DNA from: Liquorilactobacillus hordei DSM 19519
GTDB lineage: Bacteria > Bacillota > Bacilli > Lactobacillales > Lactobacillaceae
NCBI RefSeq assembly: GCF_019443985.1
Contig: NZ_CP049303.1
Location: forward strand, 620,001 to 684,000
Reading direction: 5' to 3'
DNA: 64,000 nucleotides
In this document: in pieces, positions 34,640 through 62,153 of the stretch
Layout of the letters: each line of letters opens with the position of its first letter
How positions within the stretch are numbered: position 1 is the first letter of the stretch
Program-made: the position numbers and the translations under genes
The notes under the pieces: model-generated
Databases searched by the model: none
Seen by the model: only the letters and a program-made list of their open reading frames with translations
What the model was told of the DNA's origin: nothing

Positions 34640-34907
34640 AAACACTAAATTGAGTAACATAATGAAGAGTAGAGTATATGTATGGTCTTTTGAGAGAGCT
34701 CTCGGATGGTGCAAGGGAGTAAAGAAATACATAGAAAATGAACTTGGAATGGTGCTGGCGAATAACCAGTAACGGGTTTGTGTACGTTATTAGCACAATG
34801 CTAAATATATATTTAGCTATAGAGGTGTTATCTATGAAGATGGCATAAATCAAGGTGGTAACACGGTGACTCGTCCTTATAAAATATAAAGGGATGAGTC
34901 TTTTTTT
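34640..34907 (+). ncRNA. T-box leader, methionine specifier
   Basis: The T-box sequence GGTGGTAACACGG lies at 34854-34866, followed by a terminator hairpin (34868-34900) and seven T. In stem I, AGTA on the 5' side and GAAA-ATG-A (34734-34741) on the 3' side align with the specifier loop of glyQS (GAAA-GGC-A), giving ATG at 34738-34740, hence tRNA-Met. Uncharged tRNA-Met would stabilise the antiterminator and switch on the two downstream genes. Confidence 0.9.
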
Positions 34908-34945: not shown

Positions 34946-35737
34946 ATGAAGAAATTCAAAGTAAGTCTGTTACAGTTAGATGTAAAGTTTGGTGATCCAG
35001 AAGCTAATTACAGTAATGTTGAGAAGTATATCGAAGAAGCAGTGCAAGATAAGCCAGATGTGCTTGTGTTACCTGAAATGTGGAATACGGGATATGACTT
35101 GGAAAGATTAGAAACTATCGCAGACAAAGATGGACAAAGAACTAAGACTCTTCTCACACGACTAGCTAAACATTTTGCAGTAAATATTGTTGGTGGCTCT
35201 GTGGCAACAAAAGAGGATGGAAAGTTTTACAATACAAGTTATATTTTCGATCGTAAAGGACAGTTAATCAGCCAGTATCAAAAAGTTCATTTATTTGGTT
35301 TGATGAGCGAAGACGACTTTATTAGTGCTGGTTCAACCCTAAATCAATTCATAATAGATGGTATCAAAGCCGCTGGGGTAATCTGCTATGATATTCGTTT
35401 CCCTGAATGGGAGCGTAAGTTGATGTCAACTGGACAGCAAATCCTCTTTGTGAGTGCACAGTGGCCAACCAAACGAATTGAACAATGGAAGATGTTACTG
35501 TGCGCACGTGCAATTGAGAATCAATCATTTGTGGTGGCGGTTAACCGCGTTGGTAATGCCCCTAAGGATAGTTTTAATGGTCATTCTTTAGTGATTGATC
35601 CCTTAGGCAAGATTTTAGAAGAAGGGGCTACAGATGTAGAAGGAATTTTCACCTGCGAATTTGATTTAGATGATTTAAAAGCAGTACGTGGGAATATACC
35701 AGTCTTTGATGACCGCAGAACAGACTTATATTTTTGA
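34946..35737 (+). CDS. Carbon-nitrogen hydrolase, omega-amidase type (MtnU-like)
   Basis: Nitrilase-superfamily enzyme expected to hydrolyse the 2-oxo acid amide released by glutamine transaminase. The 263 residues carry the Glu-Lys-Cys triad E44 (LPEMW), K113 (YQKVHLF) and C147 (VICYDIRFPE). It is first in the Met T-box operon and next to an MtnE-like aminotransferase, the same pair as ykrU-ykrV of the Bacillus methionine salvage pathway. Confidence 0.85.
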   Translation: MKKFKVSLLQLDVKFGDPEANYSNVEKYIEEAVQDKPDVLVLPEMWNTGYDLERLETIADKDGQRTKTLLTRLAKHFAVNIVGGSVATKEDGKFYNTSYIFDRKGQLISQYQKVHLFGLMSEDDFISAGSTLNQFIIDGIKAAGVICYDIRFPEWERKLMSTGQQILFVSAQWPTKRIEQWKMLLCARAIENQSFVVAVNRVGNAPKDSFNGHSLVIDPLGKILEEGATDVEGIFTCEFDLDDLKAVRGNIPVFDDRRTDLYF

Positions 35738-56949: not shown

Positions 56950-56995
56950 TTGACTTTTTTTATTAAGTCGGTTAACATAACCGTGATAGTATAAT
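56950..56995 (+). promoter_or_regulatory. Promoter region of the cystine-type ABC operon with palindrome
   Basis: TTGACT (56950-56955) with TAACAT (56973-56978) at 17 bp is one candidate. A consensus TATAAT at 56990-56995 is another, though with a poor -35. A perfect inverted repeat CGGTTA-ACA-TAACCG (56969-56983) covers the first -10, as an operator would. Confidence 0.6.
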
Positions 56996-57019
56996 TAATT
57001 TTTAGTGAGGAAAACATTG

Positions 57020-57097
57020 ATGAACATATTGAAATCAAAAACTCAATATATGTGTCTTTGTGGATTGTGTCTTAGACGATCCACCTTTTTGGCGTGA
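57020..57097 (+). CDS. Cys-rich leader peptide ahead of the cystine-type ABC operon
   Basis: A 25-codon ORF, ATG 57020 to TGA 57097, with GTGAGGA 7-8 nt upstream. The product is MNILKSKTQYMCLCGLCL-RRSTFLA, with Cys codons at 57053, 57059 and 57068, three in six codons. The 5' arm of a hairpin (57060-57071 with 75-84) starts at the second Cys codon, so a ribosome stalled on Cys codons would open it. An intrinsic terminator follows 33 nt after the stop. Confidence 0.6.
   Translation: MNILKSKTQYMCLCGLCLRRSTFLA
57060..57084 (+). promoter_or_regulatory. Hairpin overlapping the Cys codons of the leader
   Basis: GTGGAT (57060-57065) pairs with ATCCAC (57079-57084), then TGTC (57068-57071) with GACG (57075-57078), with a 2-nt bulge. 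Its 3' ATCC and 5' GTCT can alternatively pair with GGAT and AGAC at 57123-57131, touching the base of the terminator stem. Confidence 0.5.
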
Positions 57098-57129
57098 TGT
57101 TTTTCTAGCTAAAAAATGGAACGGATGAG

Positions 57130-57164
57130 ACGAAATCTTTTATTTTAAGATTTCGTTTTTTTTT
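57130..57164 (+). terminator. Leader terminator ahead of the cystine-type ABC operon
   Basis: ACGAAATCTT (57130-57139) pairs with AAGATTTCGT (57147-57156) in a perfect 10-bp stem, followed by a run of nine T. It lies after the leader ORF and 31 nt before the permease gene, so it must be bypassed for expression. Confidence 0.92.
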
Positions 57165-57195
57165 GTACTTTTATATACAGTAGGAGGAAGTTTAG

Positions 57196-57927
57196 ATGTG
57201 GGAAATTATTAGTAAAGCCTTACCTCAAATCTTGGAGGCAGGTTTTAAGTATACTGTGCCATTAACACTTATTTCTTTTTTTCTAGGGATAATATTGGCA
57301 CTTGCTACAGCATTAATTAGGTTATCCAGAAGAAAAGGATTCTTTTTGATAATAAAGTTAGTTTTTAGATTTTATGTGTGGTTATTTCGTTCCACGCCAT
57401 TATTAGTGCAATTATTTATTGTTTATTTTGGATTACCTTATCTAAAAATAAAAGGAATAGCTCCAGAAGGAATAAAATTAGATGCTTTTATTGCAGGAAT
57501 AATAACCTTTTCACTTAATACAGGCGCATATGCTTCTGAAACAATCAGAGCTGCAATTAGTTCAGTGCCTAAAGGACAATGGGAGGCTGCATTCTCAATT
57601 GGAATGACGAGAAATCAAACATTGAAAAGAATTATATTACCGCAAGCACTGAGAGTATCTGTGCCACCATTAGCAAATAGTTTCATAGGTTTAGTTAAAG
57701 ATACTTCTCTAGCTGCTTCGATTACTATTGTTGAGATGTTTGAGGTAAGTCAACAAATAGCAGCAGAAAATTATCAACCATTGTTAATGTATTCCTTGGT
57801 AGCCGCAGTTTATGCCATTTTCTGTACGATTCTTTCATGGGGACAAGGAAAACTTGAAGATAGGCTGGGTGTAAAAACTAGTAAGCCGAAAAAGGAGGTG
57901 GTAATTGATGAAGTTGAGAAAAATTAA
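57196..57927 (+). CDS. Amino acid ABC transporter permease, probably cystine
   Basis: A polar amino acid ABC permease (HisM/TcyB type) of 243 residues with about five spans, the FRSTPLLVQLF motif and the ATPase-contact EAA loop EAAFSIGMTRNQTLKRIILPQA. AGGAGGAAG upstream. Its last 20 nt overlap the ATPase gene. Cystine specificity is inferred from the binding protein and the leader. Confidence 0.87.
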   Translation: MWEIISKALPQILEAGFKYTVPLTLISFFLGIILALATALIRLSRRKGFFLIIKLVFRFYVWLFRSTPLLVQLFIVYFGLPYLKIKGIAPEGIKLDAFIAGIITFSLNTGAYASETIRAAISSVPKGQWEAAFSIGMTRNQTLKRIILPQALRVSVPPLANSFIGLVKDTSLAASITIVEMFEVSQQIAAENYQPLLMYSLVAAVYAIFCTILSWGQGKLEDRLGVKTSKPKKEVVIDEVEKN

Positions 57928-58645
57928 TAAATCATATGGTAATCACCTTGTTTTAAAGAATATTAACTTAGATTTTCCAGAGAAGAAAGTTACTGTTTTA
58001 GTAGGACCATCTGGTTCTGGAAAATCAACAATTTTGCGCTCATTGAATTTATTAGAAACACCAGAGAGTGGGGAATATTTGTTTGATGACTTGATAATAG
58101 ACTTTACAAAGGGTGTTGATAAAAAAGAACTATCTTATGTACGACAGAAAACGGGAATGGTTTTTCAGAATTATAATTTATTTCCGCATTTTTCAGTTTT
58201 GGGAAACATAATTGAAGGACCAACTCAGGTATTGAAGATTGATAAAAAAGCTGCAATTGAAAATGCAAAAAAAATATTAAAGAAAATTGGCTTAGAGGCT
58301 AAAATTGATAATTATCCGGAAGAACTTTCTGGTGGACAGGCTCAAAGGGTAGCAATTGCACGTTCTTTAGCTATGAATCCTGAATATATCTTACTTGATG
58401 AACCTACTTCTGCATTAGATCCTGAGTTAGAGCTTGAAGTTTTACAGGTTCTTCTACAACTTGCAAAGGACGGACAATCAATGGTCATTGTTACACATAA
58501 TATGTCTTTTGCACAACAAGTAGCTGACAAAATAGTCTTTGTAGAAGATGGAAATATTGTTTATGATGGTGCACCTGATCTTTTTTTCAAAGATAATAAA
58601 AATTTGAGGATAACGAAGTTCTTATCATCAATGGTACTAAGCTAA
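57908..58645 (+). CDS. Amino acid ABC transporter ATP-binding protein
   Basis: A 245-residue ATPase with Walker A GPSGSGKS, Q-loop VFQNYNLF, signature LSGGQAQR, Walker B ILLDEPTSALDPE and H-loop VTHNMSFA. ATG 57908 follows AGGAGGTGG; the TTG at 57905 is a less likely start. It belongs to the polar amino acid uptake group. Confidence 0.9.
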   Translation: MKLRKINKSYGNHLVLKNINLDFPEKKVTVLVGPSGSGKSTILRSLNLLETPESGEYLFDDLIIDFTKGVDKKELSYVRQKTGMVFQNYNLFPHFSVLGNIIEGPTQVLKIDKKAAIENAKKILKKIGLEAKIDNYPEELSGGQAQRVAIARSLAMNPEYILLDEPTSALDPELELEVLQVLLQLAKDGQSMVIVTHNMSFAQQVADKIVFVEDGNIVYDGAPDLFFKDNKNLRITKFLSSMVLS

Positions 58646-58669: not shown

Positions 58670-59479
58670 ATGAGAAAACGAAACTTTATTTTAAAATTAG
58701 AATTATTGGTAGCATCAGTTGTGGTTGCTTTGGGGATTTTTACAGTTCTGCCTACGAAGACCAATGCATCCTCTTACAAAGATGATTTAATTACTAAAGA
58801 TCAGTTAACAATTGGACTAGAAGGAACATATAAACCATATTCATATCGGTCAAATGGAAAATTAACGGGATTTGAAGTGGATTTGGGTAAGGCACTTGCA
58901 AAACAGCTTGGTGTGAAAGTAAAATTTGTACCAACAAAATGGGATTCATTGATTGCAGGAGTTGGTTCTTCAAAGTATGATGTGGTTTTAAATAATATAA
59001 CCCAGACACCTGAACGAAAAAAAGTGTATATTTTCTCTAACCCTTATATCTATTCACGATATGCATTAATTTCTGCAAAAAATAATAAAATTAGCAGTTT
59101 GAAAGAAGTTAAGAATAAAAAGTTTGCAGAAGGTACTGGGACAAATAATGAAATTCTTGCTAAGAAATATAAAGCAAAAATTGTTTCTTCAGGAGATTTT
59201 GCAACGAGCTTGTCATTAATTCGTCAGGGAAGAGTTGCGGGAACAATTAACGCGGCAGAAGCATATTATGCATATGCTAAAACAAATAAAGTAAGTGATT
59301 TACATTTTAAAGATTTATCGAAACAAGTTAAACCAGTTGAGATTTCAGCACTTTTAAATAAGAAAAATAAAAAATTACAGGGACGTATTAATAAGGCACT
59401 AAAAACGCTTAGAAATGATGGGACTTTGAAAAAGCTCTCAAAGAAATACTTCGGTTCTGATATTACTAAACAGCCATAA
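58670..59479 (+). CDS. Amino acid ABC transporter substrate-binding protein, cystine type
   Basis: A 269-residue binding protein with LTIGLEGTYKPYSY, KLTGFEVDLGKALAKQLG and FVPTKWDSLIAGV, close to E. coli FliY/TcyJ (cystine). The N-terminus (MRKRNFILKLELL..., hydrophobic to about residue 28, then TNASS) has no lipobox cysteine. The mature protein contains no Cys at all. Most Gram-positive binding proteins are lipoproteins, so this one is either secreted or held by an uncleaved signal anchor. Confidence 0.88.
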   Translation: MRKRNFILKLELLVASVVVALGIFTVLPTKTNASSYKDDLITKDQLTIGLEGTYKPYSYRSNGKLTGFEVDLGKALAKQLGVKVKFVPTKWDSLIAGVGSSKYDVVLNNITQTPERKKVYIFSNPYIYSRYALISAKNNKISSLKEVKNKKFAEGTGTNNEILAKKYKAKIVSSGDFATSLSLIRQGRVAGTINAAEAYYAYAKTNKVSDLHFKDLSKQVKPVEISALLNKKNKKLQGRINKALKTLRNDGTLKKLSKKYFGSDITKQP

Positions 59480-60640: not shown

Positions 60641-61408
60641 ATGATATACCAAGTTTCAGGGACAAATAAGATTAGTAAATTATTTAATGGTTGGAATGAA
60701 ACGATTATTTGGTCTTGCCTTCAAGGTGTGATGGGGCATTTATATGCTGATTCAATTGAAAATCCACAGTCAGCAATGGCGATTTTAGGTGACTTCTGTT
60801 TTTTAGCGGGTGTTCCTAATCAAGAATTGGTTAGTTTTAAACCAGAATGGTGTATGCAGGATTTTATTATTATGTCAGCTTCATCAAATGAATGGTTCAA
60901 GGTAATTGAGGCGGTCTACGGTAAAAGATGTACGAAGGTCAGTCGCTACGCAATTAAAAAAGAGCCTAATATTTTTGACGAACGAAAATTACAGGTCTTT
61001 GCCGAAGATATACCTGATAAGATTAAATTGACAATGATCGATAAGCAAATGTTCAATTATTGTTTGCGAAATGATTGGAGTCGAGACTTTGTTTCATTAT
61101 ATAAAAACTATGAAGAATACGAGAAGCTTGGGATTGGAGTAGTTGCACTCAGTGATAATTTTCCTGTGGCTGGGGCGTCTTCATATAGCCGTTACAAAGA
61201 TGGTATAGAGATTGAAATTGATACTAAAACTGAGTTTCGCAGACGTGGACTTGCAACTGCCAGTGCAGCTAAATTAATATTAGAATGCAAAAAGAAAAAT
61301 TTGTATCCGAGTTGGGATGCGCATAATCCATGGTCAGTCGGATTAGCCGAGAAGTTAGGATATCATTTTGATAAAGAGTATCAAGTGTACGAAATTAGGG
61401 GATATTAG
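60641..61408 (+). CDS. GNAT-family N-acetyltransferase
   Basis: A 255-residue protein. The C-terminal half is a GNAT domain with the acetyl-CoA loop RRRGLATASA (about 205-214) and the NPWSVGLAEKLGYHF motif. The N-terminal half is a partner domain as in the two-domain GNAT_acetyltr_2-like proteins. AAAGGGTGAGG upstream. It precedes the AAA ATPase by 22 nt. Substrate unknown. Confidence 0.82.
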   Translation: MIYQVSGTNKISKLFNGWNETIIWSCLQGVMGHLYADSIENPQSAMAILGDFCFLAGVPNQELVSFKPEWCMQDFIIMSASSNEWFKVIEAVYGKRCTKVSRYAIKKEPNIFDERKLQVFAEDIPDKIKLTMIDKQMFNYCLRNDWSRDFVSLYKNYEEYEKLGIGVVALSDNFPVAGASSYSRYKDGIEIEIDTKTEFRRRGLATASAAKLILECKKKNLYPSWDAHNPWSVGLAEKLGYHFDKEYQVYEIRGY

Positions 61409-61430: not shown

Positions 61431-62153
61431 GTGATTGCAATAAATGCGAACTTTATTCAACGAATTACACTGGATTGGAATAAAATTGCCGAAGATAGTT
61501 ACACGAGAATGATATCTTCACTGCAAGGATTAGAACAACTAGATTTTAAACATGCAGTGACTTTTTTTGTGGGGGAAAATGGTAGTGGAAAATCAACACT
61601 CCTAGAGGCAATTGCAATTAGATATGGCTTTAATCCTGAAGGTGGAAGCCGCAATTATCAATTTTCAACATACGATACACATTCGGAACTTTTCAATGGA
61701 ATTCGTGTGGCACATGGAGTCATTCATGCTGATTGGGGATATTTTTTACGTGCAGAAAGCTTCTATAATGTGGTTACCAAGGAATTAGAGTATTCTGATT
61801 TGAAACATCCGTCTGAAAAGTATCACGAGAAATCCCATGGGGAGAGCTTTTTAGCTCTTGCACAAAAGCAATTTAAGCCAAATGGTCTCTATATTTTGGA
61901 TGAACCGGAGGCAGCATTATCACCCCAGAGACAATTAACGCTTCTAGCGGAAATTAGAAACTGTGTCGAGGCTGGATCACAATTTATTATTGTTTCGCAT
62001 TCGCCGATTATTTTGGGATATCCTGATGCAGAAATATTTGTGTTTGATGATGGCAAAGTTCATAGTTGCTTGTATGAAGAAACTAAAAGTTATCAAATAA
62101 CAGAGATGTTTATTAAAAATAGAGAACAAATTTTGAGAAATTTATTTGATTAG
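61431..62153 (+). CDS. AAA-family ATPase (ABC/SMC-like, stand-alone)
   Basis: A 240-residue P-loop ATPase with Walker A GENGSGKS (48-55), an ABC-like signature SHGES, Walker B YILDEPEAALSP and an H-loop VSHSP. It has no membrane domain and no coiled coil, and resembles the small AAA_21/AAA_15 ATPases that act alone or beside toxins and nucleases. GTG 61431 sits very close to AAGGAAGG, so the start is uncertain. Function not known. Confidence 0.75.
   Translation: MIAINANFIQRITLDWNKIAEDSYTRMISSLQGLEQLDFKHAVTFFVGENGSGKSTLLEAIAIRYGFNPEGGSRNYQFSTYDTHSELFNGIRVAHGVIHADWGYFLRAESFYNVVTKELEYSDLKHPSEKYHEKSHGESFLALAQKQFKPNGLYILDEPEAALSPQRQLTLLAEIRNCVEAGSQFIIVSHSPIILGYPDAEIFVFDDGKVHSCLYEETKSYQITEMFIKNREQILRNLFD

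Follow-up and report, generated by a model that had tools for sequence, protein, structure and literature searches.

A short open reading frame (ORF) with clustered Cys codons, followed by an intrinsic terminator, precedes a cystine-type import operon in Liquorilactobacillus hordei DSM 19519. The best explanation of this arrangement, and in our judgment a highly probable one, is a ribosome-mediated transcription attenuator that reports the charging of tRNA-Cys. The importer is probably read through its built-in stop signal only when cysteine is short. The ORF, its Shine-Dalgarno sequence, its Cys codons, the terminator, their conservation, the complementarity within the leader and the association with cysteine genes were observed here. 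Translation of the leader, stalling on uncharged tRNA, readthrough and the transcription start site are the parts that the model would add. The data support an amino-acid leader attenuator of a known type, found in an unexpected order on a coherent set of cysteine genes, and there is one published expression case that it would explain. The window, that is, the whole stretch of DNA analysed, is 64,000 nucleotides long (positions 620,001-684,000, forward strand, of NZ_CP049303.1, assembly GCF_019443985.1).

The leader and the import operon in the window

The features of the locus are as follows.

56950..56978, + strand: candidate promoter TTGACT-17-TAACAT; TTGAC is invariant in 5 close relatives
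57007..57010, + strand: Shine-Dalgarno sequence GAGG of the leader ORF, 9 nt 5' of the ATG, invariant in the five-locus alignment
57020..57097, + strand: leader peptide ORF MNILKSKTQYMCLCGLCLRRSTFLA, ATG at 57020, stop at 57095-57097, 25 codons
57053, 57059 and 57068, + strand: leader Cys codons, all TGT; the first two are conserved nearby, 57068 is not
57060..57084, + strand: hairpin 1, 9 pairs, loop of 7, proposed to keep the antiterminator strand paired in an unblocked leader
57068..57132, + strand: predicted antiterminator, UGUCUUA (57068-57074) with UGAGACG (57126-57132) plus inner helices
57127..57164, + strand: intrinsic terminator and T-run, stem 57127-57159 with 13 pairs, nine T at 57156-57164
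57196..57927, + strand: ABC permease of the cystine type (CyuA/TcyL-like), by NCBIfam
57908..58645, + strand: ABC ATPase of the cystine type (CyuB/TcyN-like), ATG at 57908, with TTG 57905 as the alternative listed start
58670..59479, + strand: substrate-binding protein of the cystine type (CyuC/FliY-like), by NCBIfam and solved relatives

The first-pass annotation, made from the sequence alone, had described a short ORF with its own ribosome binding site and three Cys codons, a hairpin whose 5' arm overlaps these codons, and a perfect 10-bp terminator with nine T after the leader stop. All of these elements are present. The 5' arm of hairpin 1 overlaps the second Cys codon and touches the third, and the perfect 10-bp core of the terminator lies at 57130-57139/57147-57156. 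We thus confirmed a throw-away peptide with clustered Cys codons between a likely promoter and the cystine-type import operon. The leader region contains 2 terminator-like sites versus 0.1 per shuffle, and its fold has a z of -4.5, with 0/200 shuffles equally stable. Promoter-like sites are no commoner than chance (2 versus 1.6 in shuffles). The loci of the window, Lactobacillus sp. UCMA15818, two L. mali and Ligilactobacillus ubinensis align in TTGAC, the Shine-Dalgarno sequence, the ORF, Cys codons 12 and 14, the hairpin arms and the terminator. The claim of three Cys codons stands only for codons 12 and 14, kept in 5/5 of these close loci. In place of the third, the four nearest relatives have CGT or GGT, so the triple is a conserved pair with a local extra.

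The operon had been described as a polar amino acid ABC operon with a FliY/TcyJ-like binding protein. By sequence similarity, it is a permease-ATPase-SBP operon nearest to cystine importers. Its top NCBIfam models are a cystine permease, TcyN and a cystine-binding protein, with all three proteins below the equivalog cut-offs. The best solved relative of the substrate-binding protein (SBP) is 2yln/3zsf, and 6a80 is the fifth; we take these to be cystine-binding. The permease shares 94% identity with its counterpart in Lactobacillus sp. UCMA15818 and 92-93% with the L. mali protein. Further along the window, a 255-aa protein (60641-61408, + strand) gave no NCBIfam match at E<=1e-3, and an ORF at 61431, 3' of its gene, looks by eye like an AAA-type ATPase.

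Leaders and T-boxes on the orthologous operons

We defined a leader as an ORF with a Shine-Dalgarno sequence and at least two Cys within seven codons. This rule was met in 26/79 UTRs of the orthologous operon versus 16/258 other genes, 0/79 reverse strands and 156/1580 shuffles. Leaders were accepted in 22 of the 26, which leaves 58/80 named operons without a leader; the matches in L062, L067, L077 and L090 appear to be due to chance. At L049, the ORF picked by the rule is not the leader, and the actual one was found separately. In Limosilactobacillus, a related leader CCCGSRLMRPTFW stands 5' of either the permease gene or a preceding gene that resembles cystathionine gamma-lyase/synthase. Dissimilar leaders, with clusters of Cys or Cys+Met, were found in L. 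ghanensis, oeni and satsumensis, in Ligilactobacillus salivarius, agilis and hayakitensis, in L. delbrueckii and in others. In L. coleohominis An574 (L053), a stop follows right after three Cys codons, and the downstream pairing is retained; nature thus provides a test of the importance of the peptide tail. Nothing resembling the leader was found in phage records. Conservation of the elements had been proposed as a check: the ORF, Cys codons and the terminator are indeed kept while other codons drift, both in the five loci and in an alignment of 18 leaders.

Orthologues that keep the terminator and lack the Cys ORF had been named as evidence against the attenuator. All 18 aligned leaders keep at least two Cys codons; since these rows were chosen for having the leader, they do not test this point. 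Of 53 named operons with neither a leader nor a T-box known at that stage, 11 lack a Cys ORF and carry a terminator within 200 nt, as judged by a finder that detects the terminator in only 15/22 leader loci. A permissive rescan of eight of the 11 revealed a T-box in 8/8, so that the terminator of these eight operons belongs to another sensor. The other three terminator-only loci are L052, where a permissive scan gave no T-box ahead of the operon, L066 and L091.

The leader is thus patchy among the orthologous operons, and T-boxes stand on some of them instead. The window leader itself has no T-box match (RF00230) at the gathering score. T-boxes precede the operon in 17/80 named loci: five at the Rfam cut-off among 35 loci, and 12 in permissive scans of 24 leaderless loci, 11 of them below that cut-off. 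The count leaves aside T-boxes at L046 6354, L050 6357, L052 and L082, those on the minus strand in L055 and L073, and that of L057, which precedes another gene. The named loci therefore comprise 22 leaders, 17 T-boxes and 41 with neither assigned, 12 of the 41 having no T-box ahead in a permissive scan. An earlier label of 'neither' for 53 permeases was discarded, because 12 of the 24 rescanned leaderless loci carry a T-box; the tree labels predate the rescans. In the permease tree, L. uvarum, aquaticus, sucicola and capillatus form a T-box clade whose sister group is the leader-bearing L. oeni and satsumensis (99/92). This indicates that one operon exchanged sensors within one genus.

The 13 T-box specifiers examined read AUG by eye or by a simple pattern (L080 is one base off the pattern). 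Together with the mixed Met and Cys codons of some leaders (L056 MCACGMMCGMCFAM, L047 and L060), the T-boxes on the same operon could mean that the signal is methionine, or the two sulfur amino acids together, and not cysteine. We consider this very unlikely. The window leader has one internal Met codon versus three for Cys, and runs of Cys are what recurs among the leaders. Moreover, the L. paracasei operon discussed below was expressed more strongly without Cys than without Met (PMC6004538). Cysteine remains our preferred signal.

Other regulatory RNAs were seen in the same genome. It has 32 T-box matches at E<=0.01, many with AUG specifiers by eye, and some of them precede putative methionine and transsulfuration genes, as judged by eye. 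A rough visual reading of 30 of the 32 gave no UGY specifier. Within the window, a T-box leader (34653-34881, + strand; specifier AUG by eye) lies before a gene at 34946 whose product, by eye, resembles a carbon-nitrogen hydrolase. A purine riboswitch aptamer (RF00167; 41729-41827, + strand) and a ribosomal protein L13 leader (RF00555; 23661-23718, + strand) are also present.

RNA pairing and the position of the ribosome

Transcription of the leader would begin near 56985. When cysteine is plentiful, the ribosome would pass the Cys codons and reach the stop at 57095, and 57068-57097 would be either covered or held in hairpin 1. The terminator at 57127-57164 would then form and the importer would be off. 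When Cys-tRNA is scarce, the ribosome would stall, best at codon 12, and mask the 5' arm of hairpin 1. During the stall, 57068-57097 could pair with 57104-57132 and sequester the 5' base of the terminator before its 3' arm is made. The antiterminated polymerase would continue into the permease-ATPase-SBP genes.

We assessed the pairings in the structure alignment of the 18 leaders, which had been selected for having the leader. In the terminator helix, 98.6% of the cells are paired, with 32 both-side changes (0/500 shuffles). In the antiterminator helix, 92.0% are paired versus 24-45% in slid controls, and 4/500 shuffles are as high. One of its pairs shows a UA/UG/CG series; there is just one both-side change, which was matched in 164/500 shuffles. 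Hairpin 1 is 86% paired, and its covariation does not exceed that of shuffles. RNAfold or a covariance analysis of 56985-57195 had been suggested, and the outcome of the latter is divided: the terminator covaries, and hairpin 1 does not beyond shuffles.

The covariation bears on another reading, in which the terminator hairpin is the operator of a regulator protein and the ORF is incidental. A palindrome before cystathionine genes in lactobacilli was read as an operator by Liu et al., as cited in PMC6004538. However, the palindrome covaries as RNA and has a T-run after it, Cys-cluster ORFs stand 5' of it, and its base is complementary to the leader. We regard an operator as having only a slight chance of being the explanation, and return to attenuation.

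The complementarity was also evaluated as duplex energy between the leader after the Cys codons and the base of the terminator. L053, whose leader is truncated, and L063, whose first gene has a wrong start, were omitted. The duplex beats shuffled leaders at p<0.05 in 19/26 loci; it fails in L047 and L056, and p is 0.07-0.12 in five further loci. We then swapped the partners between loci. Within the window and Limosilactobacillus groups (16 loci), 0/20 swaps with other groups equal the cognate duplex. The swaps as good as the cognate (2-11/42 in the window group and 4-5/30 in the Limosilactobacillus group) are all between these two related groups. The swap test fails in L036 (13/50 as good), L047 (30/48) and L056 (11/50). 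Many rows of the duplex test are relatives, and the tests are therefore not independent. Among 26 cysteine synthase (cysK) leaders hand-picked for variety, 20 have a duplex p<0.05, with a mean z of -3.3. The cysK leader of the window genome has a duplex z of -3.8, and 0/25 swaps are as good. The antiterminator pairing inferred in the first-pass annotation is thus present as complementarity, in the aligned helix, in the duplex and swap tests and in the cysK leaders.

Using a model in which the RNA is folded only up to the terminator loop, we estimated the effect of the ribosome. The 5' arm of the terminator is captured at 0.50-0.87 when the ribosome stands at the first Cys codon versus 0.00-0.48 when it stands at the stop, in 26/26 loci, a contrast that is partly trivial because less RNA is free at the stop. 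Compared with shuffled leaders, the stall effect is weak for the group of the window (geometric mean p 0.30), and for all nine groups together it reaches 4e-4 only by a rough Fisher combination of per-group means; this control is weaker than the duplex test. In the window leader, the antiterminator already reaches 0.64 without a ribosome. The model works if the ribosome halts at codon 12; at codon 14 it hardly does (0.21), and at codon 17 not at all (0.0). Full-length equilibrium folds with ribosome masks discriminate poorly, the terminator dominating almost every state (mean pair probability 0.48-1.0). On stalling its probability drops only partly, in the window from 0.81 to 0.53 at codon 12. 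Therefore, the switch would have to be kinetic.

The nascent peptide itself could be the sensor, its CxCxxC or CCC binding a metal or thiol or arresting the ribosome, so that the peptide sequence and not tRNA-Cys charging would be read. Indeed, the window peptide contains CLCGLC, and CCCGSRLMRPT recurs in one broad group. Against this, Cys clusters recur across groups with widely differing spacing and neighbours, and the L053 peptide ends directly after CCC with the antiterminator pairing still kept. In addition, TTT(T)GG persists between groups in which a difference of one base changes its reading frame, which points to a constraint on the RNA. A peptide sensor is improbable in our view, if a little less so than a methionine signal or an operator. 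Sensing of tRNA-Cys charging remains the better account.

Cysteine synthase operons and known systems

A covariance model (R1) was built from the 18 cystine-operon leaders and searched against 301 Lactobacillaceae genomes with stricter filters. At E<=1e-10 it found 40 places in 37/301 genomes of 7 genera. We read all 40, of which 11 are training sequences or their copies. By motif, the nearest gene among three kinds is cysK in 22, a cystathionine gene (cgl) in 10 and the permease in 6; the others are L189, where the N-terminus identifies cysK, and L153, whose permease lies 0.7 kb downstream. At the training leader L156, the cgl motif is 1.26 kb away. The 29 new places lie before cysK (23), before cgl (5) and with the permease (L153). 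One representative each was assigned by NCBIfam to cysteine synthase (cysK) and cystathionine gamma-synthase/lyase (cgl), below the cut-offs. Weak matches, which bring the total to 83/301 genomes at E<=0.01, were set aside. Eight of ten such matches (L191-L200) come with a Cys leader; the other two, L196 and L200, look spurious. At L192 (G022), a CCC leader MSNEYQVKTDICCCGLCPTPSTI stands 5' of a MetA-like acyltransferase gene. A search with the exact pattern found 10/301 genomes, and the reversed pattern none.

In the window genome, a TIGR01139 search gave one cysK, below the model cut-off, followed by a cgl-like ORF. A second Cys leader MVVLNFKKVNNACCCLIPRVSVDETVTLGWNLFCK (CCC) and a terminator lie ahead of this operon. 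Across the order, cysK matched at E<=1e-70 in 74/246 genomes. The best 30 of those loci include 27 with a Cys-cluster leader, in five families; these leaders are as unlike as MKKMNCLDVCCCLCC and NMNNACCCTCCTVYSSC. Rfam gave no match in any of the 20 scanned among the best 30; L208 and L209, also among the best 30, have a T-box-like GGTGGTA string. Judged by sequence, the window element is one of a larger group, those of cysK operons included. Outside the order, at class level, the rule fires in 7/29 cysK loci; apart from L240 we take these as chance, L240 alone having CCC and L245 having CC at the start. In E. faecalis (NZ_CP143580.1, L237 2274-2411), an annotated 45-aa hypothetical protein with CCC, WP_002355203.1, is encoded before a terminator-like hairpin and then the cysteine synthase gene.

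In L. paracasei FAM18149, cysK2-ctl1-cysE2 was higher by a log2 of about 3 in Cys-deficient than in Met-deficient medium (PMC6004538). That paper describes high 5'-UTR coverage, a terminator and the lack of a T-box, calls the mechanism 'yet to be discovered', and mentions an antisense RNA in the 3'-UTR as a possible contributor. It turned out that two L. paracasei plasmids carry the exact published terminator motif AAGGGCGCGAAA-N16-TTTCGCGCCCTT. In both, a leader MSQSMFNAINCCCRTTRFWRCSAC with a strong Shine-Dalgarno sequence stands ~65 bases 5' of the motif. A variant is present in L. rhamnosus and L. casei plasmids.

We think it likely, with less confidence than for the window attenuator, that Cys-codon leader attenuation is a main mode of cysteine control in Lactobacillales. 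Fast-evolving leaders would stand order-wide over cysK-cgl(-cysE) and, in several genera, over cystine import. They would be swapped with Met T-boxes between sister species, sometimes be tuned to Cys+Met, and provide the missing mechanism of L. paracasei cysK2-ctl1-cysE2. In the open-access papers searched, we found no Cys leader of lactobacilli; most subscription papers lie outside this set, so this is no proof of novelty.

If this is true, lactic acid bacteria gain a cysteine control beside the usually named T-boxes and LysR regulators, the published premature termination of the L. paracasei cysteine operon is explained, and one operon swapping two kinds of tRNA sensor offers a natural experiment. 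In these species, the control of cysteine matters for cheese flavour and for the defence against oxidative stress. The data also suggest that some short 'hypothetical' proteins before cysteine genes, such as the 45-aa one of E. faecalis, are leader peptides.

Attenuators of the trp/his type combine a short ORF containing codons of the regulated amino acid, mutually exclusive pairings and an intrinsic terminator. The window has the same short ORF, regulated-amino-acid codons, alternative pairing and terminator, but its leader belongs to Lactobacillales, where T-boxes are the usual device. Cys leader peptides had been regarded as mainly actinobacterial. They are reported there, before the cys operons of Mycobacterium and P. 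acnes and cbs of B. longum (PMC1262725), but are also in print for Rhodobacterales, where the uORFC-8-2 motif before cysS has two tandem Cys codons in a uORF, a stem containing the codons and a terminator with a U-run (PMC8632094). In common with the actinobacterial leaders, the window has a short ORF with Cys codons in runs, 5' of cysteine genes. Unlike it, those leaders are reported to lack a conserved terminator, and a Rho-dependent mode was suggested (PMC1262725). With uORFC-8-2 it shares Cys codons in a short ORF, a stem at the codons and a terminator with a U-run; it differs in phylum, in its genes (cystine import and cysK/cgl, not cysS) and in Cys codons that are not adjacent.

The His leader peptides of bacilli likewise replace a T-box in Firmicutes, but concern histidine and hisS paralogues (PMC2965389). 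In L. reuteri BR11, a cgl gene linked to cyuABC forms a cystine system that has been studied by experiment (PMC4383340, PMC6722424). Leaders precede a similar set, cgl with permease, ATPase and SBP genes, in the Limosilactobacillus loci analysed. A Cys T-box is reported on another transporter operon in L. paracasei (PMC6004538). Like the leader, T-boxes sense tRNA charging through transcription termination, and they occur on the same operon in other species; they bind the tRNA directly without a leader ORF, whereas the window leader has one.
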